The notes under the pieces: model-generated
Database searches by the model: none
What the model was told of the DNA's origin: nothing
Seen by the model: only the letters and a program-made list of their open reading frames with translations
From: a virus
Direction: 5' to 3' (one strand)
Length of the DNA: 47,789 bases
Virus record (IMG/VR): IMGVR_UViG_3300032285_003623
Location: 1-47,789 of that record
In this document: piece by piece, positions 4,220 to 47,789 of the stretch
Layout of the letters: each line of letters opens with the position of its first letter
How positions within the stretch are numbered: the first letter of the stretch is position 1
Program-made: the position numbers and the translations under genes

Positions 4220-4960
4220 ATGGCACAGAATACAGGTAATGCAAGAAATATTCTCGTTGGTGCTTCACCACTATTTCTTTCAACACTAGATATTACATCT
4301 GCAGATTACGGCGACTTCGAAGCTGGAGTTGCTAAAGCAGGTACAGCTACAAAGAATAACAAGGTTCCAGCATTCGCAGCTGCAACAACACAAGCAGCAG
4401 GTACATCTTATACAGATACACTTAACAATCTTGATGCAGGTGTAGGACAAGATGGAGCTTACCGTAACGTAGGTTACACAAACAACGGTCTTCAAGTTAC
4501 ATATAACCCATCATACGGTTCAGTAACAGTTGATCAGCTTCTTGACTCAGCAAAGCTTTTCAAGGAGACAATGGAAGTTCAGATCGCAACAGAAATGGCA
4601 GAAGGTACTCTTGAGAACGTTCTTGCAGTATTTGGTCAGCGTTCATCAACACTTGATACAACAACAGATGCAGCTAAGAAGGTCCTCGGACTTGCTGGTG
4701 GTGCACTTGGTGAGGCTCCAACAGAGCGTCAATTAATTGCAGTTGGACAAGCTCCAACATCTGCAGCAGCTTCAGCTACTGAGCGTGTATATTATGCACG
4801 TCGTGTTCTTTCTGTACAACAGTCACAGTTCTCTTTGGCTCGTAACGCAGCATCAACATTCCCAGTAACATTCCGCTTGCTTCCATCTGGTGACTCAGCT
4901 CACGCAGGTAAGGAATATGGTTTCATCGTAGACCGTGTTCTTTCGAAGCTTCCAGCATAA
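4220..4960 (+). CDS. Major tail (tube) protein
   Basis: 246 residues. Its own promoter and AGGAGG site, strong terminator and CGT-dominated arginine codons mark a very highly expressed gene, as expected for the subunit that polymerises around the tape measure to form the tail tube. Position between the tail terminator and the tail-assembly chaperones fits. The sequence is Ala/Thr-rich, with a central Y-N-P-S-Y-G-S-V-T-V-D-Q-L-L-D segment and a C-terminal beta region (F-P-V-T-F-R-L-L-P). Assignment is from context, length and expression signature. Confidence 0.75.
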   Translation: MAQNTGNARNILVGASPLFLSTLDITSADYGDFEAGVAKAGTATKNNKVPAFAAATTQAAGTSYTDTLNNLDAGVGQDGAYRNVGYTNNGLQVTYNPSYGSVTVDQLLDSAKLFKETMEVQIATEMAEGTLENVLAVFGQRSSTLDTTTDAAKKVLGLAGGALGEAPTERQLIAVGQAPTSAAASATERVYYARRVLSVQQSQFSLARNAASTFPVTFRLLPSGDSAHAGKEYGFIVDRVLSKLPA

Positions 4961-4980: not shown

Positions 4981-5010
4981 GAGCCCCCCAAGAAATTGGG
5001 GGGTTTTCTA
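4981..5010 (+). terminator. Intrinsic terminator after tail tube gene
   Basis: CCCCCCAA (4984-4991), GAAA tetraloop, TTGGGGGG (4996-5003), then TTTTCT. Same design as the terminator after the capsid gene. Confidence 0.92.
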
Positions 5011-5068: not shown

Positions 5069-5401
5069 TTGGCAACTACAGTATATGATGTTGAAGAAAT
5101 TCAGCTAGCAAATGGCGTTAACGTTAAGCTTAAGCCTTTAACAATTAAAGAGCTTAGAAAGTTTATGGCAGCCATCAGCAAGACAGCGGATGCAACAACA
5201 GAAGATGAAACACTAACAATTCTTATTGATGCATGTGCAGTAGCACTAGAAAAGCAATTACCAGAACTGGTAGTTGATAGAGACGCATTTGAAGATGTTC
5301 TTGATGTACCAACTATTAACCGCATTCTTGAAGTATGTGGTGGAATTAAGATGGACGACCCAAACCTTCTAGCGGCAGCGGTTCTGGCTGGTCAGAACTA
5401 G
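5069..5401 (+). CDS. Tail assembly chaperone, short form (gpG-like)
   Basis: 110 residues from a TTG start with AGGAGG seven bases upstream; no ATG lies near. Acidic helical protein with the opening ... V-N-V-K-L-K-P-L-T-I-K-E-L-R-K-F typical of siphovirus tail chaperone N-terminal domains. Such proteins coat the tape measure during tail assembly and are not in the virion. It lies between the tube and tape-measure genes, and its tail end holds a -1 slippery site, CCCAAAC at 5359-5365, giving the longer form described next. Confidence 0.85.
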   Translation: MATTVYDVEEIQLANGVNVKLKPLTIKELRKFMAAISKTADATTEDETLTILIDACAVALEKQLPELVVDRDAFEDVLDVPTINRILEVCGGIKMDDPNLLAAAVLAGQN

Positions 5402-5727
5402 ATCTAGCCGCTTTAGAGGGAGAAGTTTTTCTTTTAGGTAATTGGAAGAATTACGAAGAACTAGAAGATAATCTTTCAATGCCAGAATTAATAACAACAT
5501 TTAAAGCAATGCAAAAAACTGAAACTGAAAAACGAAAGTTTTTAGCTTCAATTCAAGGAATTGATTTAGGTGAAAATAATAATGAGGAGGGATCTACCTT
5601 CGAAGATATTAAGCGTAGAGCTTTAGGAATAGATGCATCAGCAGACGATGTAGTCTCATTACAAGGTTCATTTGCAGATGATGCAGGGTTTGGTATTGAC
5701 GCTGGTTTAGGATATTCTATAGAGTAA
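5069..5727 (+). CDS. Tail assembly chaperone, -1 frameshift fusion (gpGT-like)
   Basis: Predicted 219-residue product: 99 residues in the first frame, then a -1 shift at CCCAAAC (5359-5365), reading on from 5365 to the TAA at 5725-5727. The new frame opens at 5350, so fusion is possible only in a short stretch containing this heptamer. Across the shift the peptide becomes a Ser-Gly linker (PSSGSGSG), then a conserved-looking segment with F-L-L-G-N-W-K-N-Y-E-E-L, the second chaperone domain. The C-terminal domain has no good ribosome site of its own. In lambda and most siphophages the fusion is made at a few percent and its T domain recruits tube subunits to the tape measure. The tape-measure ATG follows 9 bases after the stop. 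Confidence 0.85.
5359..5412 (+). promoter_or_regulatory. -1 ribosomal frameshift signal
   Basis: CCCAAAC (5359-5365) fits X-XXY-YYZ in the zero frame (CCA-AAC). After a 5-base spacer comes a structure: AGCGGC (5371-5376) pairs with GCCGCT (5407-5412), and inside it GGTTCTG (5380-5386) pairs with CAGAACT (5393-5399). The zero-frame stop (5399-5401) lies within the structure. Confidence 0.85.
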
Positions 5728-5736
5728 CATAGTAAT

Positions 5737-8700
5737 ATGGCAGAAAATAACTTAACGACGTTTATTACCGCCAATGCAGATTTTTCGAGTTTAAGAACTC
5801 AATTAGCTGCAGTTACTGCCCAACTCGTAAAACTTCAAGAAACAACAGTAGGAACTAACGCAAAGCTCGGCAACCAGATTGCCGTAATGAACAAAGCTTT
5901 CGCCGAGACTTTGCGATCCACTGGACAGTATTCAACTCATTTTGTAACATTAAGTTCAGATGTAGAAAAGTTTGGAAAAAACTTAGATACTGGAAAATTA
6001 AAATTAAGTCAATATTTTAGAGTATGGCAAGATCATACTCAAAAGTCAGGCGGATTAATAAAAAACCTTGCTAAACAGCAAGTAATGCTTGAGCAAGCAA
6101 TCGTACAGCCACTTGGTAAAAATGCACAAGGCATAATGCAATACAATGTTCAGGTTGCAAAAGGTCTTGATGAAATAAAAAATAAAACAGCTTTAGCAAG
6201 ACAAGAAGCATCAATTATGAACAAAGTGATGCTTGATGGATCAAATCAATTAATTAACTGGGGTAAAAATACACAGTGGGCTGGACGTCAGCTTACTGTA
6301 GGATTAACTGTCCCACTAGCGGCGTTTGGTGCTGCTGCACAAAAAGCTTTCTTAGATGCAAATACCGAAATGGTAAGATTAACTAAAGTTTATGGCGGAC
6401 TAGCTGCAACATCTTCATCTGAATTAGCAAAAGTACAAAAAGATGTTGCTGCAACAGCAAAGCAAATGGCATCATCATATGGTGTTGCATATAAAGAAAC
6501 TATTGCACTTGCAGCTGATATGGCAGCTACTGGTAAACAAGGTAATGATCTTATTGCTTCTACCACACAAACAACAAGACTTTCAGTCTTAGGTGAAATT
6601 GATAGACAGTCTGCAATGAAAGCAACTCTTGCTATTCAAAATACATTTAAACAAAATACAGATCAATTAACTCAATCTATTGATTTTCTTAACGCAGTAG
6701 AAAACCAGACGTCTACTAGCCTTCAAGATTTAACAGATGCAATTCCAAAAGCTGGCCCAGTAATTCAAGCTATGGGTGGAAGCGTAAAAGATCTTGCTCT
6801 TTATTTAACAGCAATGAAAGAAGGAGGCATTGACGCCTCATCTGGTGCAAATGCACTTAAGTCAGCACTTGCTTCTCTTGTAAACCCAACTAAAGTTGCA
6901 ACAGATATGTTTGCAGGATTTGGCATTGATTTAAAAGGAATTGTTTCAAAAAATGCAGGAGACTTAACAGGAACTATTCTTAACCTTCAAGCAGCATTAG
7001 ATACTCTTGATCCATTAAAGAAACAACAAGCATTAGAACAACTTTTTGGTAAATTCCAATTTGCTCGTATGAATGCTTTATTTTCTAATTTAGGTAAACA
7101 AGGATCTCAAACACTTAAGGTTATGGACCTTATGAAGGCTAGCTCACAAGATTTGGCAAATGTATCTAGTCGAGAATTAAGCATGATGACAGAATCTGCA
7201 TCAGGTAAATATAAAAGAGCTCTTGCAAGTGTTCAAGCAGATCTTGCTCAAGTTGGAAAACAATTTTTAACAATTAGCACATATGTATTAAGAATCGTAG
7301 ATGGAATTGTTAAGTTCTTTGATAAACTTCCAGCACCTATTAAAACAGCCCTAGGCTTCCTTGGTGGACTTACAGCAGTCGCTGGTCCACTCATCATGCT
7401 TACTGGTGTTCTAGGCAACTTTGTTGGATATGTAATTAAAGGAGTTTTCCACCTTAAATCTTTAATTAAGGGTGGACAAGGATTTAAGCTCTTAACACCT
7501 GAAATTGTTGCAGCTATGGAAGCTGGTAAAGGTTTATCTACAACATTTTATAATGATGCAGAAGCAACTAATATTCTTACAGCAGCCGTAGATACATTAA
7601 CACAATCATTTAATAATTTAGAATTAAGAGCAAATGCAGCAAAAGTTGCAATGAATCCAGCAATTACCACTGTTGCAAATAGTGTTATATTGCCAGGACA
7701 AGCTGCAGTAGAATCTGCTTCAGGTAGAGTTGTAGATAAAAATAATCCGTTAGCTGGAAAACCTTATACAAGACAAATGGCTCATTTGATTCCTGCTGCA
7801 AGCGAACAGCCTGGAACAATTTTTGGAGTTGTCCCAAATCCTGGACCAGTAAATGTTAGAATTGGAAAAAATCCACAAGCTTATATGAATTCTGATCTTC
7901 CAAAGATTCCAGGACTTACTTCTATTAATGGTGTATCTACTGGAATTGTTGCAGAAGAAGCTGCAAAATGGCATGCAATGACTGGTGCATTATCAATGCA
8001 ATCAGAGGCAGAGCTAAAAGTATTAAAAACAGAAGTAAATGCAACAGGAACAATTACAAAAGAATTAGCACAATCTTATCAAGCCTTACTTCCAGAATTT
8101 ACTACAATAACAACGTTGGCTGCAGAAGAAACTGCTGCAATTGTTGCAGAGGTTCAAGCAAATAAAATTAGCGTAGAAGCTGCTAGAGCAAAAATTGTCG
8201 CATTAAATGCTGAAGTAGAATCAATGCTTGCAACTACAACTACTCAAGTTGCATCTAATTTAGGCAGAACTGCCAATATAGAAACAGTTCCTTTAACTAC
8301 ACAACCAGCAGTAGATGCAAATGGAAAGTCTAATATGAAAGAATTATTTCATAAAGGAAAAGTTTCTACTCTTGTGGATAAAATTGCTAGAGCATTAGGT
8401 GGAGTAAAAACATCAGGCGCAGGGTATTCAATTCATACAACAACTCCTAAGTTTAATACTGGTGGAATGATTGAAAACTTTAATGCAGGAAAAACACAAG
8501 TATCTGGCCCAGCATCTATTAAATATGATGATCGAATGGGAAGCGTTCCCATAGGTGGATATGTATTAAATCAAGCAGCATCCATGGATCCAAGAAATGC
8601 CCCACTTGTTGCTGCTGCATCTTCTACGTATAATGGTGGAGGACAAATAACCGCATTATTGACTCCAAAAGAAACAGTATTTGGAGCAGGAATTCAAAAT

Positions 8701-11700
8701 AATCCTAAGTTATTATCTGCTGTTCATGCAGCAAATAATGGAACACCGCTACCTCAACATATGGCAGGTGGAAAAATTGGTTTAACAAGAACAAGATATG
8801 GACTGCCAGCACCAACAGAAAAATACTGGAAGACAAGACTTAAAGAATATTTCCAATTTATAAATGATCCAAGATACGAAGAAAATATTCGTATGAGAAT
8901 GATTATGCTAGATGCAGCTGAATTAGCAGATCACATGTCTGTTTCTACTGCAATTGATATTGCAAAAAGTAATTTTGATGACGCTAAATATAAATCTCGT
9001 GGAAGCCAAGATGCATTTATTAGAATAAGACAAATGCAAACAGATATGCTTGAACAGCAATTTGGAGGAAGAGACGTATTAAGATTGGGTGTAGATGCAG
9101 GTGGTCAAGACACAGCAAGAAGCACTGCATTAAATAGAAACTTAAATTCTATTAGAAAATCTATGTTATTAAGAAAAGATTTTGCTTCTATTAAAGATTT
9201 AATTGAGGCAGTTCCAAAAACAACAGGAATAAATAGCCAGGGCGTTCCATATTTAAATGGAAACGTTAGAGGTCATTTAAGCAGAAGAGGAACAATTGCA
9301 GGCGGAGGATCAAGAGGATTCTTTGGAGTTGCTGCAGTAATGCCTCATTCGTTAAACGACTTGGCAGCTAAACTTCAACAAAGAGGATTACTTCCAGATA
9401 TTGTTCATGTAACACAATCAAAAGCAATTAGCGATTTTGAATCTATGATTGAAAAAACTGGCCTTGGAAAACATGTAACTGTAGAAGATATAGCCAAAAC
9501 ATTATCTCATGATACACGATTCCCATCAGCTGCTAATTTAGCAAAAGATCGTATAACGCCTCCAACAAAAGAACAAAGAAGCTTTACAAAAATGTTCATG
9601 GATGCAGTTGCATCTAATAAAAGATGGATGCCTAAAGGCGGTCAATTAATACTTCGTAACCTCGGAGGAATGATTGGCGGAACTATCCGTAGAGGAAAAA
9701 ATAATTATGGAATAATGAATAGTAATCTATTCATGGCTAAAAATCCACAAATTTATAATAGATCATCCCTAGGAATAAATCCAGAAAATTGGTTAAAGCA
9801 TGGAATGACAGAAGCAGAAATGCTTGCTGCACAAAGAGAGTTTGCTAAATATCCAAACGGACAAAAGCCTACTATTTATAATCCAGCAAAACCTGCTGGA
9901 AAGTTCCCACTTCCTGGTTCTTATTATCAAGATCTTGCAAATACTGATCCTCTTCATGGAGCTCTGCAAATTGGTAGATATCAAGGAGCTATGGGAATAA
10001 GAAGCCAACATGTGGCTCCAAGAGTTATTTATAGCAATCAATTAGGATTTATGAAAAGAGGAAGTGCTCCAGCTTTTGAAACTGGAACACTTGAATCTAG
10101 AGCTAGATCAGCATTATTTAATTATATGCAAGGAGATTATGCTGCTATAGATGATCCTGCAGTTCAATCATATTTATCAGCACTTAGAACAAAATTTACA
10201 GGAACACTACATCGTGGAGTAAAACATACATCAAGCCTGCCACCAGTTATTAGAGAATTAATAAATGCTGGAAGATGGGATGATTTAGTTGGTAAAGAAT
10301 TTATCATGCGTCGCTCTTCTTGGAGTACAAATAAAGATACAGCGGTTGGATTTGGCGATGTATTATTAACTGCAAATGTAAAAAATAGAAATGCAGTTCC
10401 TGCTTCACAGATTTTCCCAGAATTAACATTTAATACCCCTCAAGGCCCTGTAAAGGTCAACGAGAGCGAAGTATACATGGGAGGTAAGTTTAAGGTTGTA
10501 AGAGCCTCTAAGGGGCATCTACAGCTTCAGGCAGTATATGATGCAGCTCGTGAAAACGGCGGACCAGTAAACGCTGGAAGACCTTACCTTGTAGGAGAAA
10601 AAGGCCCAGAGTTATTTGTTCCTAAAAATAGTGGCGGAATAATTCCAGGATACGCTTTGGGTGGCAGAATAACTTCTGCTAAACATAACTATGGACTTAT
10701 GGGAACCATAGGTAAAGGTATTTTGGCACAAGGTCCAGGATTGGTTGGTTCTCTTTTAGGAGGAAAATTACTAAGCTCACTAGGAGTACCATACGGAGAT
10801 TTAATTGGAAGCATAGCTGGCTGGTCTGCTGGCGCAGCAGCTGGAGAAAAAGTATTAGGTCATTTTGCAAAAGGAGCTGTAGAAGCAGGGGCTAAAGCAG
10901 AAACAGCCGCAGCAAAAACTGGATTACTTGCAAGAGCTGGTAAACTTCTTCCCGATGTTTTAAAGGGCACAGTATTTGGAATAAGTAAATTAAATATTGC
11001 ACTGACAGTAGCATCAGTAGCAGCATCTGCAGCTTATAGTTCTTGGAAAAATCATAAAGAGACTTTAAGACTTCAAGCTTCAGCATTTGGATTATCTGCT
11101 GCAGCTGCTCAAAAAGCAGGACTTAAGTATAAAGATTTTAATCAAACGATTAAAGACGTAATGGAAAATGCAAAACTTTCTAAAGAGAATGGAAAAGGTT
11201 TATTTGAAAACTTTGCGTCATCTGGTACTGGATTAAATCTTACAATAACACAATACAAAGCTTTGAAAAAAGAAGTTCAAGCAACTTATGCAGATCAAAT
11301 CAAGTTATTCAATCAAAGTAAAAAATCAGATGTTAATAGTATTGCAGTAGAACTTAAAACTCAATTCATGGCTGCTGGAATGTCAGCAGAAGATGCAACA
11401 AAGAAAATTTATGCAATGATTGCAGCATCTAATAAACAAGCTCAATCAGGTTCTGCAACAATCGCAAATAAAGATTTTACTAACATTAAAACTCCAAAAG
11501 ATGTTGGAGTGGCTGGCGTAAAGGGATTTGATACAGCTTCCAGACTAGGTGATGTAACAGCACAAGCAGCAGCACTATATACAGCAATAAATGGAATTGA
11601 TACTGGAATTGCAGGAATTTCTGCAGAAGCAGAAAAAACTGCCAGAGCAGCTAACAAAACAGTTGATTCAGCACAAATTCAAGCAGATGCTATTAAAGCA

Positions 11701-14700
11701 CAGATGGAAGCTATTGGAACTGGCCACCAAAAGATTTCTCTTGATTTAATTAATGAGCTTGCTAAAACAAATCCAGCTATTCGTGAATTTGCAAGCACTC
11801 AAGATACAGTCTTAAGTTTATGGCAAAAAATTAGAATTGAAGCTCACGGATATACTGGTGATTTAACTCAATTAAATGCAGAACAAGTAGATGCGCTTTA
11901 TAAACTTCAAGCAGCAGTAGATGCTGGCGTTGCTGCAGCAACTGGTGCAAAAAATGGAATAATGGCAAAACAAACTGCAACATTAAAGGCAGATATAATA
12001 TTGCAAGAAAAATATGCCAAAGCAGCAATGGGACAATCTGTCAAATCTCAAATTAGTGCAAGAGATCAAATTGCATCACTACAAAAACAAATTGATGCAA
12101 ATAATAAACTTGCAGATGCAAGATTAAAAGCATTAGATGCAGCAAAAGCAGAATCTGATTTATCTAATCAAATTGCTAAAAAGCAGGCAGAATATCAGTC
12201 AGCCTTAGCAACTGGAAATACTGCACAAGCTCAACAGGCAAGCCTTGATATACAAGGACTTCAAAGCCAAATGCAATATGATGCACAACGCAAAAATATT
12301 CAAGATGCAACTACTGCAAAAAATGCTCCACTTGAAGCTCAAGTTGCTTCACTTCAAGCAAATCAACAAAAACTTTCAGATACAGCAGCTCTCGCAAGCG
12401 AAAATCTATCTAAGCTAAATACTAAAATAGGAAAAGAAAAAGAAGGTATTGATAATGTAAATACCGCTTTAGCAAATCTTAAGTTAGCATTAATTAATAA
12501 TAAAACAGATTTAGATGGATTAATGAAGAAATACCCAGATCTTTATAAGAGCCTACTTGGCAAATTAACAGAAGCTATGACCAATGAGGGATTAATTCCA
12601 AAGGGTGTTAAAAATGCTAATGATTATGCAGCTGAAGCATTTAAAACAATGAATGATGCATTTTCTAATTTTAGTGCAACAAATGTAACTATCGTTACGC
12701 AAAAAGCTATCTTAGATAAAAATGGTGGAAAAAATACACTTGATACTAGCCCATCAGTATTAGCGGCAAATGACAAGCTACCAAAAGCTGGAGACAGCGT
12801 AACTAGAGTAGACTCATCTGGAAAGAAAACAACAGTCACGCTAACACCAAAAGACCCTGGTGTTAGAAATCCAAATCTACCTCACCTTCCAGCTTCAGGA
12901 AAAGAAGGTTGGTTCCACTGGAATAAATTTACTTCAGGTCAAGAGGTAACTTCAAATGCAATTGCAGCAGCAGGAATAAAATCTCATACACCTTATCAAG
13001 GACTAGATGGCAACTGGTACGTTTGGATGGGTGAATCAACTGTTGGATTAGTATTTAAAGATAAAGGTGGTAAAAAACAGTTAGGTCAATGGTCTGCATT
13101 TAATGATAATGGGCAAGTTATTGCTTACGCTAAAGGTGGACAAATTGGAAACTATGATGGTGGAGGTAATGTAAAGGGCCCAGGAACTGCAACTTCAGAT
13201 TCAATACCTGCATACTTATCTAATGGAGAATATGTAATTCGTGCATCATCTGTATCTAAATACGGAAAAGATTTTTTTGATGGATTAAATACACAAAAAT
13301 TTGCAACAGGAGGACATGTTCAAAATTTTGTTAGTGGCGGAGCAGTTGTTGAAATTGGAAGAGCAATATTTAATTCTCTTAAAAATGTTCCTCATATCAT
13401 TGAAGCATTAAAGTTTTTAAAAATTGGAACACACAATTCAACTAATCCAAATTTAGCATCGTCTTTATTACATCCAAATGATTACGCTGCAGGAAAAGAA
13501 CAAACATTAGGTAATTTTACGCACTTTGCTTTAAACTCAGAATATCAAGCTAATCAAAGATATGGATCAAATACATATAAAACTAAATTAACTCCAGCCG
13601 CAATAGCTGCAATCTTAAAGAGCAAGGGTTTTGCAAATTCTTCTCAGATGGCAAAATTTGGATATCCATATGGAATGAATGGTGCAAAATTCTCAGATCA
13701 AGCCATACAAGATGCAATTAATGCAGGTTATATCGGAGCAAAATATGTTGTAGGAAATCCAAAAGTTGATCAATTCTCTAATTTCTTTACTGGAATAAAA
13801 GGACATCCACTAGGACAAATAAAGGGACACGCACTTGGCGGTATGATTCCAAAATTTGGATTTGGTGGATTCTTAGGACTTTTTGCAAAGAAGATTCCTT
13901 CAATAATGGCATCCTCTGCACTATGGCAAACAATGGAAGAAGGAGAAAAAGCACTTTCATTAAAATGGGGTGCAAATCAAAATGCTTCAGGATTCTCAAA
14001 ATGGTCTAGAGCTTTAGCAAGAGTTGCATATGATTCATTACAAGGTGGAGTCTCAGGATTACCATTTGGAGGCGGAGCAGGTTTTGTAGGAGGATCAGTT
14101 GCAGGTCTTGTAGAAGGTTTAGTTGGTCTAGCTAAAGATGGATCACAATTTGGAGTTAAGGGTGGATCACACTCCACAGATAAAGGATTTAGTGCTAAAA
14201 AAGAATTAGCAAATATGAGCATTGCTAACTCATTAAAGAATATTGCAGTCACTGCTGGACTATCAGTACCAATGGGATTTGCTGGGCATTTAGCTGGTCC
14301 TTTATTAAAGAAAATAACACAGCCAGCATTGAATAAGGTTGTATCATCAAATCTTGCACAAAAACTTACACCAAAAGATCTTTCTACATTAAGTAATACA
14401 CAATATAAAAAGCTTGTAAATTCTATATACAAAAGAAATAATTTAAAAGTAACAATTGGTAAAGATGAACACATCTTGCCAACATATACTCTAGGAAAAA
14501 CAAAATTTGCATTCCAGGGCAGTGGTCAGGACATAGCTGGACTTGCTGGTTCTGGGGTTGAAATTGTTCCAACTACACCTATAGGAATACTTCAAGCTGC
14601 TTTAAAGTTAAATCCAAAAGATAAAACATTAAAGTCATTATTAAATAATTTCAGTAAAAATAAGATTTCAGATAAAGAAATTAAATTCTTAGATAGTATG

Positions 14701-16101
14701 CTTGCCTCTGTTGCAATAAACAAGCGTGGTGGAGTATCTTCAATAGAAACAACTGATGGCTTTGCAATGCTATTAGCATCTTTAAACAAAAATAAAAATG
14801 CTCAAAAAATAATAACATATAAAACTAATAAATATTTAAATGCTGTAAAGAATAAAGATTTACTTAGAAAACAAGAAGCTGCAGCAGGAGCAGGAAATCC
14901 AAATTGGAATGATATTATTGCAGATCCTTCAACTGTTCCAGTAATACATTCAACTAAATTCCCAATAATTCGTGATAAGAGCGGTAATGTTGTTCTCAAT
15001 ACTTATGGAGATCATAATATGGGAACGGATCAAGCTTATCCAAGAGCTTCATTGCACTTTACATTAGAAGCACCAGTTCAATCTCATTTATTTGGACAGT
15101 GGGCACCTACACAAAATAAAATTGTTTCTCCTTTAAATTCAATGATAGCAGATAACGGGCTGCCTTATAATTTAAATTCAACAGATACTTGGTGGATGAG
15201 AAATCCAGGACAAGCCTTAAAGATATCAAATTCTAGTGTTATTAAACCTTTTACAGATATGATTGCTTATAGAAAAGAATTAATATCAAGAGGTTTAATA
15301 GATCCAAGTAAACTAACTCCACTTGTTGCTGTAGATCCTGCAACAAAAGAAATTTTACATGTAAATAAAAAACTTTATGGTTCTGTTGATAGACTGCAAA
15401 TATCTAGAATGCTTAAAGATTTAGATTTAGGGTATAGCGTAAAACCAGGAGAAGAAACTGCAGCATTAGATAGAATTGCAATGCAGCTTGCTAAAAAACA
15501 AATAGGTATAAATTCTAACCCAGTAAACCTAGAGCAACATGGACTTGGAAATACTGAAAGACAAAATTATATATACAAACTTTCAGATATGTTAGGTTTA
15601 AGTTCAGAAATTCATAGTGGTTCAGTTCCAGAAAGAGCTGAGTCAAGTTTTGCAAAAAATAATAAAGGTAATAGAGAAATACCATATGGAAGAGTAACCG
15701 ATAGTATTGAGGCATTAAGAATGCTTGCAGCTAACGGAGGGTTTGGCACTTATTTAAAGAGACTTCCAAATAAAGATGACTTTAATTGGGCACAAGGTGG
15801 ATTAATTAATATCCCTAAATTTGAAAATGGAATTAATATGGTCCCTGCAAATATGCTTGCTATGCTTCACAAAAATGAAGCAGTGGTTCCTGCTAACATG
15901 AATCCATTTAATCCTAACGCTAATAATGCTACAATGAGTGGAGCAACTTATAATATTACTAATAATATTAGCGGATATACAGGAGATATAAATCAACTTT
16001 CAGATGTTGTTACTAGAAAAACAATTACTGCAATTAAAACTATGGATTCTACCAATGCAAAAATGGTGGGAACCTCAAAGAATGTGAGTATTAGAGTATG
16101 A
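5737..16101 (+). CDS. Tape measure protein with embedded ADP-ribosyltransferase-like domain
   Basis: 3,454 residues, the largest gene here; it sets tail length and is normally ejected with the DNA. Residues ~180-500 match TP901-type tape measures (V-P-L-A-A-F-G-A-A ... A-M-K-E-G-G-I-D-A-S-S-G-A-N-A-L). A hydrophobic segment lies at ~535-573, others near 1,675-1,770, and a coiled coil at ~2,080-2,265. Familiar tape-measure pieces include V-G-E-K-G-P-E-L-F-V-P near 1,625 and S-D-S-I-P-A-Y-L-S-N-G-E-Y-V-I-R near 2,490. Residues ~1,455-1,592 look like an ADP-ribosyltransferase: R1493 in TLHRG, S-W-S (1528-1530) followed by A-x-x-F, and E-S-E (1576-1578) followed by G-x-K-F-K-V. Other unknown globular modules are separated by glycine linkers. 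Weak ribosome site; coupled to the chaperone stop. Confidence 0.9.
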   Translation: MAENNLTTFITANADFSSLRTQLAAVTAQLVKLQETTVGTNAKLGNQIAVMNKAFAETLRSTGQYSTHFVTLSSDVEKFGKNLDTGKLKLSQYFRVWQDHTQKSGGLIKNLAKQQVMLEQAIVQPLGKNAQGIMQYNVQVAKGLDEIKNKTALARQEASIMNKVMLDGSNQLINWGKNTQWAGRQLTVGLTVPLAAFGAAAQKAFLDANTEMVRLTKVYGGLAATSSSELAKVQKDVAATAKQMASSYGVAYKETIALAADMAATGKQGNDLIASTTQTTRLSVLGEIDRQSAMKATLAIQNTFKQNTDQLTQSIDFLNAVENQTSTSLQDLTDAIPKAGPVIQAMGGSVKDLALYLTAMKEGGIDASSGANALKSALASLVNPTKVATDMFAGFGIDLKGIVSKNAGDLTGTILNLQAALDTLDPLKKQQALEQLFGKFQFARMNALFSNLGKQGSQTLKVMDLMKASSQDLANVSSRELSMMTESASGKYKRALASVQADLAQVGKQFLTISTYVLRIVDGIVKFFDKLPAPIKTALGFLGGLTAVAGPLIMLTGVLGNFVGYVIKGVFHLKSLIKGGQGFKLLTPEIVAAMEAGKGLSTTFYNDAEATNILTAAVDTLTQSFNNLELRANAAKVAMNPAITTVANSVILPGQAAVESASGRVVDKNNPLAGKPYTRQMAHLIPAASEQPGTIFGVVPNPGPVNVRIGKNPQAYMNSDLPKIPGLTSINGVSTGIVAEEAAKWHAMTGALSMQSEAELKVLKTEVNATGTITKELAQSYQALLPEFTTITTLAAEETAAIVAEVQANKISVEAARAKIVALNAEVESMLATTTTQVASNLGRTANIETVPLTTQPAVDANGKSNMKELFHKGKVSTLVDKIARALGGVKTSGAGYSIHTTTPKFNTGGMIENFNAGKTQVSGPASIKYDDRMGSVPIGGYVLNQAASMDPRNAPLVAAASSTYNGGGQITALLTPKETVFGAGIQNNPKLLSAVHAANNGTPLPQHMAGGKIGLTRTRYGLPAPTEKYWKTRLKEYFQFINDPRYEENIRMRMIMLDAAELADHMSVSTAIDIAKSNFDDAKYKSRGSQDAFIRIRQMQTDMLEQQFGGRDVLRLGVDAGGQDTARSTALNRNLNSIRKSMLLRKDFASIKDLIEAVPKTTGINSQGVPYLNGNVRGHLSRRGTIAGGGSRGFFGVAAVMPHSLNDLAAKLQQRGLLPDIVHVTQSKAISDFESMIEKTGLGKHVTVEDIAKTLSHDTRFPSAANLAKDRITPPTKEQRSFTKMFMDAVASNKRWMPKGGQLILRNLGGMIGGTIRRGKNNYGIMNSNLFMAKNPQIYNRSSLGINPENWLKHGMTEAEMLAAQREFAKYPNGQKPTIYNPAKPAGKFPLPGSYYQDLANTDPLHGALQIGRYQGAMGIRSQHVAPRVIYSNQLGFMKRGSAPAFETGTLESRARSALFNYMQGDYAAIDDPAVQSYLSALRTKFTGTLHRGVKHTSSLPPVIRELINAGRWDDLVGKEFIMRRSSWSTNKDTAVGFGDVLLTANVKNRNAVPASQIFPELTFNTPQGPVKVNESEVYMGGKFKVVRASKGHLQLQAVYDAARENGGPVNAGRPYLVGEKGPELFVPKNSGGIIPGYALGGRITSAKHNYGLMGTIGKGILAQGPGLVGSLLGGKLLSSLGVPYGDLIGSIAGWSAGAAAGEKVLGHFAKGAVEAGAKAETAAAKTGLLARAGKLLPDVLKGTVFGISKLNIALTVASVAASAAYSSWKNHKETLRLQASAFGLSAAAAQKAGLKYKDFNQTIKDVMENAKLSKENGKGLFENFASSGTGLNLTITQYKALKKEVQATYADQIKLFNQSKKSDVNSIAVELKTQFMAAGMSAEDATKKIYAMIAASNKQAQSGSATIANKDFTNIKTPKDVGVAGVKGFDTASRLGDVTAQAAALYTAINGIDTGIAGISAEAEKTARAANKTVDSAQIQADAIKAQMEAIGTGHQKISLDLINELAKTNPAIREFASTQDTVLSLWQKIRIEAHGYTGDLTQLNAEQVDALYKLQAAVDAGVAAATGAKNGIMAKQTATLKADIILQEKYAKAAMGQSVKSQISARDQIASLQKQIDANNKLADARLKALDAAKAESDLSNQIAKKQAEYQSALATGNTAQAQQASLDIQGLQSQMQYDAQRKNIQDATTAKNAPLEAQVASLQANQQKLSDTAALASENLSKLNTKIGKEKEGIDNVNTALANLKLALINNKTDLDGLMKKYPDLYKSLLGKLTEAMTNEGLIPKGVKNANDYAAEAFKTMNDAFSNFSATNVTIVTQKAILDKNGGKNTLDTSPSVLAANDKLPKAGDSVTRVDSSGKKTTVTLTPKDPGVRNPNLPHLPASGKEGWFHWNKFTSGQEVTSNAIAAAGIKSHTPYQGLDGNWYVWMGESTVGLVFKDKGGKKQLGQWSAFNDNGQVIAYAKGGQIGNYDGGGNVKGPGTATSDSIPAYLSNGEYVIRASSVSKYGKDFFDGLNTQKFATGGHVQNFVSGGAVVEIGRAIFNSLKNVPHIIEALKFLKIGTHNSTNPNLASSLLHPNDYAAGKEQTLGNFTHFALNSEYQANQRYGSNTYKTKLTPAAIAAILKSKGFANSSQMAKFGYPYGMNGAKFSDQAIQDAINAGYIGAKYVVGNPKVDQFSNFFTGIKGHPLGQIKGHALGGMIPKFGFGGFLGLFAKKIPSIMASSALWQTMEEGEKALSLKWGANQNASGFSKWSRALARVAYDSLQGGVSGLPFGGGAGFVGGSVAGLVEGLVGLAKDGSQFGVKGGSHSTDKGFSAKKELANMSIANSLKNIAVTAGLSVPMGFAGHLAGPLLKKITQPALNKVVSSNLAQKLTPKDLSTLSNTQYKKLVNSIYKRNNLKVTIGKDEHILPTYTLGKTKFAFQGSGQDIAGLAGSGVEIVPTTPIGILQAALKLNPKDKTLKSLLNNFSKNKISDKEIKFLDSMLASVAINKRGGVSSIETTDGFAMLLASLNKNKNAQKIITYKTNKYLNAVKNKDLLRKQEAAAGAGNPNWNDIIADPSTVPVIHSTKFPIIRDKSGNVVLNTYGDHNMGTDQAYPRASLHFTLEAPVQSHLFGQWAPTQNKIVSPLNSMIADNGLPYNLNSTDTWWMRNPGQALKISNSSVIKPFTDMIAYRKELISRGLIDPSKLTPLVAVDPATKEILHVNKKLYGSVDRLQISRMLKDLDLGYSVKPGEETAALDRIAMQLAKKQIGINSNPVNLEQHGLGNTERQNYIYKLSDMLGLSSEIHSGSVPERAESSFAKNNKGNREIPYGRVTDSIEALRMLAANGGFGTYLKRLPNKDDFNWAQGGLINIPKFENGINMVPANMLAMLHKNEAVVPANMNPFNPNANNATMSGATYNITNNISGYTGDINQLSDVVTRKTITAIKTMDSTNAKMVGTSKNVSIRV

Positions 16102-45345: not shown

Positions 45346-46315
45346 AAAAATGAAACCATGGATATGGGATAAAGAAAATTCAGACCAACTTTGGAAATGC
45401 GCTACTGATAAACTAAGTGGTGGCTATACTGTTGTAAATATTGAAACAAACTCATTTGGATTTGCAGGCTCAGAATTTAAAGAGGCTGCAGATATTGTTG
45501 CTTTAGGCTGCTCTTTTACTTTTGGTCAGGGCGTGTATCCTGGATCTGCATGGCCAAATCATGTTGGAAAATATTTAAATAAAAAAGTTCATAACTTAGG
45601 AGCGCCAGCAAAAGGTGTCCCGTTTAATATTAATTCTTTTTTTGATTATGTAAATGAGTTTGGTAACCCAAAATATGTTTTATGTTTATTTTCAAATTTT
45701 ACAAGAATTGAAATGGTTTCTAGATCTCATGATACAAGACCATCAAAAAAACATATAACAAGTGGAAGGTTGCCAGAGCTCTATGAAGATGAAAAAATTA
45801 TACAATACTCTTTATCTTTGCCAATATCTTATGATAGTAAGCCAAAATATTTTAAATCTCCACTGCTTGCAGAAGAAATAATTCCACAAGAATTTGCACA
45901 TACAATATCAATTCAATATATTAAAATGTTGGAAGCATATTGTAATACAAATAATATAGTTTTGTTATGGACAACTTGGATGGATGAACAAAACTCATGG
46001 ATAAAAAATAATATTGAAAAAACTTTTTTTAGAAATTTTATTTATTTAAACAATTTAGAATTCCATTCAAGAGAGGAAGATGAAAGAAAAGATATACTTT
46101 GTGATATAAGACACGAACCTGGTAAAAAATGCTATACTGAATCAAATTGCCATCAAAAAGAAAAAGATTTATATGGAAAAAATTTTATGCTTGCCGATGA
46201 TTGGAAGTCTTATAAAGATATAAATATAAGAGGACATTGGGGTGTGCATAGGCACTTACATGTTGCAGAAATGTTTTTGAGAGGAATAAATGACTACAAT
46301 ATTAGGAATAAATGA
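45335..46315 (+). CDS. SGNH/GDSL-like hydrolase, copy 3
   Basis: 326 residues. Same architecture as copy 2: L-G-C-S60-F-T-F-G-Q-G, H-N-L-G-A-P-A-K-G, F-G-N-P-K-Y-V-L-C-L-F, the identical helix S-I-Q-Y-I-K-M-L-E-A-Y-C, and the end R-G-H-W-G-V-H-R-H-L-H-V-A-E. A 24-base DNA identity spans the serine motif in copies 2 and 3, a sign of duplication or gene conversion. Overlaps the carbamoyltransferase gene by 26 bases, suggesting joint expression and a shared pathway. Confidence 0.68.
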   Translation: MNYKKMKPWIWDKENSDQLWKCATDKLSGGYTVVNIETNSFGFAGSEFKEAADIVALGCSFTFGQGVYPGSAWPNHVGKYLNKKVHNLGAPAKGVPFNINSFFDYVNEFGNPKYVLCLFSNFTRIEMVSRSHDTRPSKKHITSGRLPELYEDEKIIQYSLSLPISYDSKPKYFKSPLLAEEIIPQEFAHTISIQYIKMLEAYCNTNNIVLLWTTWMDEQNSWIKNNIEKTFFRNFIYLNNLEFHSREEDERKDILCDIRHEPGKKCYTESNCHQKEKDLYGKNFMLADDWKSYKDINIRGHWGVHRHLHVAEMFLRGINDYNIRNK

Positions 46316-47738
46316 GACATCTCATGATGCTTCTGTTTCTTTAATTAAAGATGGAGAGATATTATTTGCAGGTCATGCAGAAAGATATAGTAAGCAAAAA
46401 AATGATTGGTATATTAATGATCAATTAGTTAATGATGCTTTGTCATACGGTAGACCTGATTACATAGCTTATTACGAAAAGCCTCTTCTAAAGGCCTCCA
46501 GGCTTTTTTTAAAGGGCGGATCTGGGGAATGGAAACCAAAATTTGATATAGAAGATATACCAAGAAAATCTTTTAAGCATCATTATTCACACGCATGTGC
46601 GGGATATTATACAAGCAAATTTACAGATGCAGTAATTGTTGTGCTTGATGCAATTGGAGAATATAATACCTCAACAATTTGGGTTGGAGAAGGCCAAAAA
46701 ATTAAACTAAGATTTAAACAAAATTACCCAGTAAGTTTTGGTTTATTTTATTCAGCATTTACTAAATTAATTGGGCTGATGCCAAATCAAGAAGAGTACA
46801 TTATGATGGGAATGGCTGGCTATGGAGATTGGAGAAGGTATTACAAAGAAGTAAATGAATATTTTCCAAAATACTATAAACAATCATATAATTTTCATAA
46901 AGGAATAATAGATTGGAATTTTCCAATGTCAGATCAAGATAAATTTGATATTGCTGCAGCTGTACAGTTTGTTTATGAGCAAAGGCTAAATGAATTTATG
47001 CGTATGGCAAAAGATCTAACAGGTAAAAATAATTTAGTTTTTATGGGTGGTTGCGCTTTAAATTCATCTGCCAATACGCTTCTTTGGAAGATATTTAAAG
47101 ATGTTTGGATAATGCCAAACCCAGGGGACGCTGGAAGTTCATTAGGCGCAGCAGCAGCAATGTATGGCAAACATATAAATTGGAATGGTCCTTATTTGGG
47201 CTATGATATGGGCGGAGAGTATCCAGTTGAAGAAATAGTTAATTCAATATTAACAGATGGAATTGTTGCTGTTGCATCAGGTAGAGCAGAGTACGGCCCA
47301 AGAGCTTTAGGCAATAGAAGCATTCTTGCTGATCCAAGAGATCCAAACATTAAAGATAAGGTAAACTTAATTAAACAAAGAGAGTTGTTTAGGCCTTTTG
47401 CTCCAGTAATTTTAGAAGAGCATGCATCCGAATGGTTTGATATGGATTTTACAAGTCCATATATGCAATACACAGTTAAGTGTTTAAAGCCTCACTTGAT
47501 ACCATCTGTTGTACACGTTGACGGAACCTCAAGAGTTCAAACAGTTAATCGTGAACAGCACAGAGGTTTATGGAGAGCAATAAATAAATTTTATTTAAAA
47601 ACTGGTGTTCCTATTTTATTAAACACGAGCTTGAATATAAAAGGACAACCTTTATTAAATGATGAGAAGGACGCTATTGACTGGCAGGCACATTACGGTT
47701 ATAATATACTAACTAGCGGCAGTAGCTTAGTTGGTTAA
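46290..47738 (+). CDS. Carbamoyltransferase, NodU/TobZ family
   Basis: 482 residues from ATG 46290 with GAGG upstream. N-terminal ASKHA-like domain (I-L-G-I-N-E-T-S-H-D-A-S-V), metal site H97-H-Y-S-H-A, V-V-L-D-A-I-G, G-G-C-A-L-N near 253, R332-A-E-Y-G-P-R-A-L-G-N-R-S, R-P-F-A-P-V and N-T-S-L-N-I-K-G-Q-P. These make carbamoyl-adenylate from carbamoyl phosphate and ATP and pass the carbamoyl group to an O of a sugar or small molecule. All key residues are present. It ends in L-T-S-G-S-S-L-V-G, whose last codons are the first part of a tRNA gene. Confidence 0.9.
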   Translation: MTTILGINETSHDASVSLIKDGEILFAGHAERYSKQKNDWYINDQLVNDALSYGRPDYIAYYEKPLLKASRLFLKGGSGEWKPKFDIEDIPRKSFKHHYSHACAGYYTSKFTDAVIVVLDAIGEYNTSTIWVGEGQKIKLRFKQNYPVSFGLFYSAFTKLIGLMPNQEEYIMMGMAGYGDWRRYYKEVNEYFPKYYKQSYNFHKGIIDWNFPMSDQDKFDIAAAVQFVYEQRLNEFMRMAKDLTGKNNLVFMGGCALNSSANTLLWKIFKDVWIMPNPGDAGSSLGAAAAMYGKHINWNGPYLGYDMGGEYPVEEIVNSILTDGIVAVASGRAEYGPRALGNRSILADPRDPNIKDKVNLIKQRELFRPFAPVILEEHASEWFDMDFTSPYMQYTVKCLKPHLIPSVVHVDGTSRVQTVNREQHRGLWRAINKFYLKTGVPILLNTSLNIKGQPLLNDEKDAIDWQAHYGYNILTSGSSLVG

Positions 47739-47789
47739 AGCCCCGAACTCATAATTCGGTAATCGTAGGTTCGAGTCCTACCTGCCGCA
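47716..47789 (+). tRNA. tRNA with CAT anticodon, probably elongator Met
   Basis: Full cloverleaf: acceptor GCGGCAG / CTGCCGC (7 pairs), D stem GCTT/AAGC, anticodon stem CCGAA/TTCGG with loop CTCATAA, T stem GTAGG/CCTAC with TTCGAGT loop, discriminator A. The G1-C72 pair argues against initiator Met. Elongator Met is favoured; an Ile tRNA with modified C34 cannot be excluded. The window ends at the discriminator base, so an encoded CCA cannot be checked. The first 23 bases overlap the carbamoyltransferase gene. Confidence 0.92.

Follow-up and report, generated by a model that had tools for sequence, protein, structure and literature searches.

How does the virus represented by IMG/VR record IMGVR_UViG_3300032285_003623 express the two overlapping open reading frames (ORFs) that lie between its major tail protein and tape measure genes? 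We analyzed the whole 47,789 nucleotides (nt) of this virus DNA (positions 1 to 47,789 of the record; hereafter the window), in which a first-pass annotation had read the overlap as a −1 frameshift signal in tail chaperone genes. We conclude with high confidence that the two ORFs are the tail assembly chaperone pair of a long-tailed relative of Streptomyces phages, predicted to be expressed by programmed −1 frameshifting. The annotation is borne out by gene order, the −1 relation in relatives (149/149 and 80/80 loci), a switch of coding frame seen by codon position, matches to PHROG families and joined annotations in named phages. The locus is thus a well-supported, predicted frameshift of the lambda gpG/gpGT type and an ordinary new example of a well-known class.

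Reading frames and predicted slip site

The first ORF (5069..5401, + strand) has a TTG start and encodes a gpG-like frame-0 chaperone of 110 amino acids (aa), ending at the stop codon TAG (5399..5401). The −1 frame, bounded on its 5′ side by TAA (5347-5349), is open from 5350 as the first-pass annotation had it, and encodes the C-terminal (T-like) domain up to a stop that ends at 5727 (5350..5727, + strand). The second ORF is therefore in a −1 relation to the first with an overlap that is open throughout, and inside this overlap the slippery heptamer C_CCA_AAC (5359..5365, + strand) is in phase with ORF 5069-5401, whose codons here are CCA (5360) and AAC (5363), and is followed by a 5-nt spacer, CTTCT (5366..5370). 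The junction peptide reads ...DDPN-PSSGSGSGWSEL..., in which the Ser-Gly linker ascribed to the shifted product is readily recognized; every coordinate of the first-pass annotation agrees with the sequence. We posit that most ribosomes would translate 5069-5401 to give the 110-aa G-like protein, and that a two-part stem downstream would hold a minority while CCA occupies the P site and AAC the A site, whereupon both tRNAs would re-pair one base back (CCC, AAA). Translation in the −1 frame would then yield a 219-aa GT-like fusion with the linker DDPN-PSSGSGSGW.

The identification of the ORFs as chaperones rests on gene order, PHROG matches and annotated relatives, because Pfam offered no family above cut-off for either chaperone domain and a profile search of the PDB returned nothing meaningful (one chain, E 0.88). 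On either side of the junction there are matches to phrog_10504 (E 3.6e-32, first domain) and phrog_10474 (E 9.7e-18, second domain). The order of major tail protein, two overlapping chaperone ORFs and tape measure recurs in the Streptomyces phages read, and a tblastn search matched 127 phage records, all of Streptomyces phages, with most among the 40 matches listed already named tail assembly chaperone.

Taken alone, the heptamer is weak evidence, since an in-phase XXXYYYZ arises in the overlap in 36% of 20000 synonymous shuffles, the share falling to 5.9% when the overlap must also be open; the case for frameshifting is instead carried by the stability of the stem and by conservation in relatives. 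Diversity by codon position across 53 distinct relatives and the window is, at frame-0 positions 1/2/3, 0.095/0.053/0.354 before the overlap and 0.056/0.004/0.221 within it, and, at −1-frame positions 1/2/3, 0.117/0.051/0.342 after the stop, with the lowest variation in 5369-5398 (mean 0.076). Because the third-position peak moves from frame 0 to the −1 frame, the coding frame switches from 0 to −1 at the junction.

These data bear on the possibility that no frameshift occurs and the second ORF is translated independently, through reinitiation or an internal start codon (ATG 5479 or a non-standard one), which we regard as very improbable. The ATG at 5479 would indeed give an 82-aa ORF, and the annotations of the phages Coruscant and Riptide list the chaperones as two distinct coding sequences (CDSs). 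However, the conserved domain begins ahead of this codon, with the phrog_10474 match starting at residue 32 (about 5443), and the −1 open region has no ATG, GTG or TTG upstream of 5479. Moreover, the −1 frame is under coding-type constraint from just past the frame-0 stop to 5479, and relatives keep it open back to the heptamer, which would be needless for an ORF with its own start. Transcriptional slippage at a run, or a sequencing error that split a single gene, would likewise join the frames, but we consider these the least probable accounts of all: CCCAAAC runs to only three identical bases, too short for the usual polymerase slippage, and the same frame break is present in relatives on many separate contigs (some of them seen in more than one scan). 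On the strength of the domain start near 5443, the −1 constraint, the short run and the many contigs, we rejected all three of these alternatives.

Predicted slip sites among the relatives

We surveyed relatives in IMG/VR by three scans, using the first domain, the second domain and a distant search, which share some contigs; the counts below cover the best 80 loci of each, out of 587, 237 and 525 confirmed relatives. CCCAAAC is present in 37/80 loci of the first-domain scan, the other 43/80 having AAATTTG one codon downstream, and in 80/80 of the second-domain scan, all 80 of which also keep the −1 relation. The distant scan has CCCAAAC in 57 loci, CCCAAAT in 8 (one of these also with AAATTTA), AAATTTG in 1 and none of these in 14. 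Thus, the 160 loci found by the first domain (first-domain and distant scans) divide into 102 with CCCAAAC or CCCAAAT, 44 with AAATTTG and 14 without any XXXYYYZ, so that an in-phase heptamer is found in 146/160. A long second domain lies in the −1 frame in all 149 uncut first-domain loci (149/149; the other 11 of the 160 are cut by an end), and in each of these 149 the −1 stop is at least 290 nt beyond the frame-0 stop. The conservation of the heptamer, which the first-pass annotation had named as a check, therefore holds for the 102 loci and for the 80/80 of the second-domain scan, and fails for the 44 with AAATTTG and the 14 with none. It had also named a different slip site or a +1 relation in relatives as evidence against itself; the former is seen in the 43 first-scan loci, the −1 relation is nevertheless kept, and since AAATTTG preserves this same relation, only a detail of the frameshift reading is affected and the reading itself stands.

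In a tree built on the first gene with the junction excluded (119 distinct rows), 29 AAATTTG rows group together (support 92/85) and one more, L239, stands apart, all of them nested in CCCAAAC rows; 2 changes are required to account for the AAATTTG label, and a single origin is still conceivable. In two loci (L030 and L047), the CCA codon is replaced by GCA but AAATTTG is intact, an indication that AAATTTG is the site used in its clade. In L002-L028 and the other AAATTTG loci, the slip site lies one codon from that of the window, while the downstream stem and the linker region are shared.

The 14 loci without XXXYYYZ have C_CCG_GAA at the homologous place. In 11/14 (the exceptions being L172, L173 and L177), its CCC is precisely where the −1 frame opens, which suggests that the slip may be retained there, with C_CCG_GAA as a candidate site only. 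The Coruscant-like loci (L166-L179, L083 and L084) have the −1 overlap and lack XXXYYYZ. We tentatively propose, with somewhat less than even confidence, that one family moved its slip site by one codon (CCCAAAC to AAATTTG), keeping the stem, the frame relation and the linker, and that the Coruscant-like clade slips at the same place on a non-XXXYYYZ site. If so, the moved site and the Coruscant-like site would constitute a natural series in which the signal was rebuilt and the balance of chaperones kept. The replacement of the slip site between sister clades is the sole mildly unusual point of the locus and, the stem being shared, provides a small but usable comparative series on which parts of the signal matter.

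The downstream stem

The first-pass annotation had also described a two-part stem after the 5-base spacer, with the zero-frame stop inside it, and here the sequence is in full accord: all the arms pair. The outer stem joins AGCGGC (5371..5376) to GCCGCT (5407..5412), and the inner one GGTTCTG (5380..5386) to CAGAACT (5393..5399) with one G-U pair; of the TAG at 5399-5401, the T is the final base of the inner stem, and the AG falls in the gap separating the 3′ arms. The 5-nt spacer falls within the range of about 5-9 nt for stimulators given in the consulted part of PMC5009743. The minimum-energy fold of 5355-5430 (−26.2 kcal/mol) adds pairs to the outer stem until it reaches the final heptamer base, and the 5-nt figure accordingly depends on where the stem is taken to start. 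None of the 1741 coding 60-mers of the window (0/1741) is as stable as the stem, and only 2/2000 synonymous shuffles are. These shuffles preserve the frame-0 protein up to the stop and, beyond it, the −1 protein, though not the −1 protein inside the overlap, and for this reason dual coding may explain part of the excess.

To count pairs, we used 80 distinct rows. Complete 76-mers were obtained from 220 loci, giving 85 distinct sequences including the window, from which 5 distinct Streptomyces-like rows were left out as too different downstream (L181, L182, L183, L186 and L196); a further 20 loci had been dropped, 15 without the anchor motif (L166-L180) and 5 incomplete (L022, L042, L189, L224 and L229). 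The stem pairs in 93.1% of the cells of this alignment, as against 24-44% for slid versions, and the outer helix in 93.3%, with one compensatory pair that is G-C in 64 rows, A-U in 10 and G-U in 5. The A-U form is confined to AAATTTG rows, and the compensatory change may therefore be a single event. We also folded seven sequences singly: three window segments gave z-scores of −2.02, −1.97 and −0.47 (the last without the 5′ arm of the outer stem), and four relatives gave −2.71 (L068), −2.39 (L050), +0.05 (L058) and +0.83 (L002). In the AAATTTG clade, the helix starts 2-3 nt after the heptamer, and support for the stem is weaker there; in L217, both outer arms differ in sequence, and a shifted-register pairing is still possible as judged by eye.

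Several observations weigh against frameshifting at a stem-stimulated CCCAAAC. The stem of the window reaches a dinucleotide-shuffle z of only about −2.0, and those of L002 (AAATTTG clade) and L058 (CCCAAAC clade) are no better than shuffles. In the 80 rows, changes on both sides occur at one pair only, the terminal (outermost) A-U pair is open in 27, and two pairs of the inner stem fail to form in 14 and 20; the consensus predicted by RNAalifold includes the outer helix, with five pairs, and lacks the inner one. No XXXYYYZ is present in 14/160 first-domain relatives, all Streptomyces-phage-like loci. Finally, AAC is a heterogeneous AAN codon, the less shift-prone class in E. coli according to the consulted part of PMC4066793, although the tRNAs of the host may differ. 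Taken over the folds, shuffles and alignment, the stem is stable and conserved, but because the single-fold z-scores vary so widely, its role is less certain in some relatives.

In a variant of the frameshift reading, compatible with it and not competing for the same probability, frameshifting is real and the stem does little: the heptamer would suffice for a low level of slippage, and the conserved pairing would reflect dual coding and base composition. The segment does code in two frames and its diversity is low, in keeping with this variant, as are the varying inner stem and the two relatives that fold no better than shuffles. Nevertheless, the near-constant pairing of the outer helix, its compensatory change and a stability that is extreme among the coding windows of the record speak for a working stem, and we consider the variant unlikely, if worth taking seriously.

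Genomic setting and known systems

Upstream of the locus are genes for a capsid protein (Pfam Phage_capsid above cut-off; phrog_1623) and a head-tail adaptor match (phrog_442), followed by the major tail protein gene (4220..4960, + strand; phrog_2175, E 1.2e-29, ‘protein with Ig domain’), whose counterpart is so named in three relatives. The tape measure gene (5737..16101, + strand) is assigned by position, as a tape measure follows the chaperones in four Streptomyces phage records; at 3454 aa it is very long, and a very long tail would be predicted. The gap separating the major tail protein gene from the chaperone gene contains a terminator-like hairpin, CCCCCCAA-GAAA-TTGGGGGG followed by TTTTCT (4984..5009, + strand). 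A hairpin with a T-run is found here in 70/80 relatives versus 2/80 control stretches inside the tail protein gene; a consensus scan does not report the hairpin at 4984-5009. It may lower the expression of the chaperones and tape measure relative to the tail tube protein. At the other end of the window, a gene at 46290-47738 encodes a Nol-like carbamoyltransferase (phrog_1601, E 1e-103; class moron, auxiliary metabolic gene and host takeover), and a tRNA-Met gene (anticodon CAT, 47716-47789) ends at the very last base of the record. The 10-mer CTAGCGGCAG occurs twice, at this tRNA gene (47713) and at the stem (5369). A search of the window for exact terminal repeats (15-500 bases) was negative, so the record may be a fragment.

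Joined frameshift genes are frequent in phages: the consulted text of PMC10885494 counts one in 2476/3679 SEA-PHAGES genomes, 2397 of these being tail assembly chaperones, and a genome announcement for Phredrick and Spelly notes that a −1 frameshift is predicted for the BK1 chaperones (PMC10793280, in part). An E. coli survey found that homogeneous ZZN codons shift better than heterogeneous ones (PMC4066793, in part); by its rules both AAC and UUG count as heterogeneous, in line with a low ratio of fusion, with the proviso that these are E. coli rules and the tRNAs of the host may differ. Literature searches, covering titles and the starts of abstracts, gave no title on phage recoding for CCCAAAC with frameshift and none on the frameshift signal of this virus group. 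Xu et al. 2004 reportedly described a conserved translational frameshift in tail genes. Our results add a well-supported textbook case of predicted recoding in an uncultured virus and supply, for many IMG/VR contigs, the correct gene products (110 aa and, as predicted, 219 aa).

Among the closest known systems are those of the Stanwilliamsviridae Streptomyces phages, such as Patelgo and TunaTartare, which have homologous proteins (about 45-55% identity among the matches listed), the same gene order and a joined chaperone CDS across both frames. Phages of this type share with the window a heptamer at the same place and a Ser/Gly-rich linker; their heptamer, however, is CCCAAAT in place of CCCAAAC. 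Coruscant and Riptide, with their two separately annotated chaperone genes, differ further from the window in having no XXXYYYZ in the overlap. The hosts of the Stanwilliamsviridae are Streptomyces, whereas the window has a G+C content of 34%. Relative to lambda, the window shares a predicted −1 slip late in the first chaperone gene, a fusion that adds a second domain and a position beside the tape measure gene (PMC5009743, in part). It is unlike lambda in that its chaperones belong to different protein families (phrog_10504 and phrog_10474). Its heptamer is CCCAAAC with a strong predicted downstream stem, and that of lambda is GGGAAAG. In lambda, a low-level −1 shift produces many gpG per gpGT, and G attaches to the tape measure, T to the tail tube protein (PMC5009743, in part). 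By analogy, the short form in the window would bind along the tape measure, and the fusion would recruit the major tail protein.
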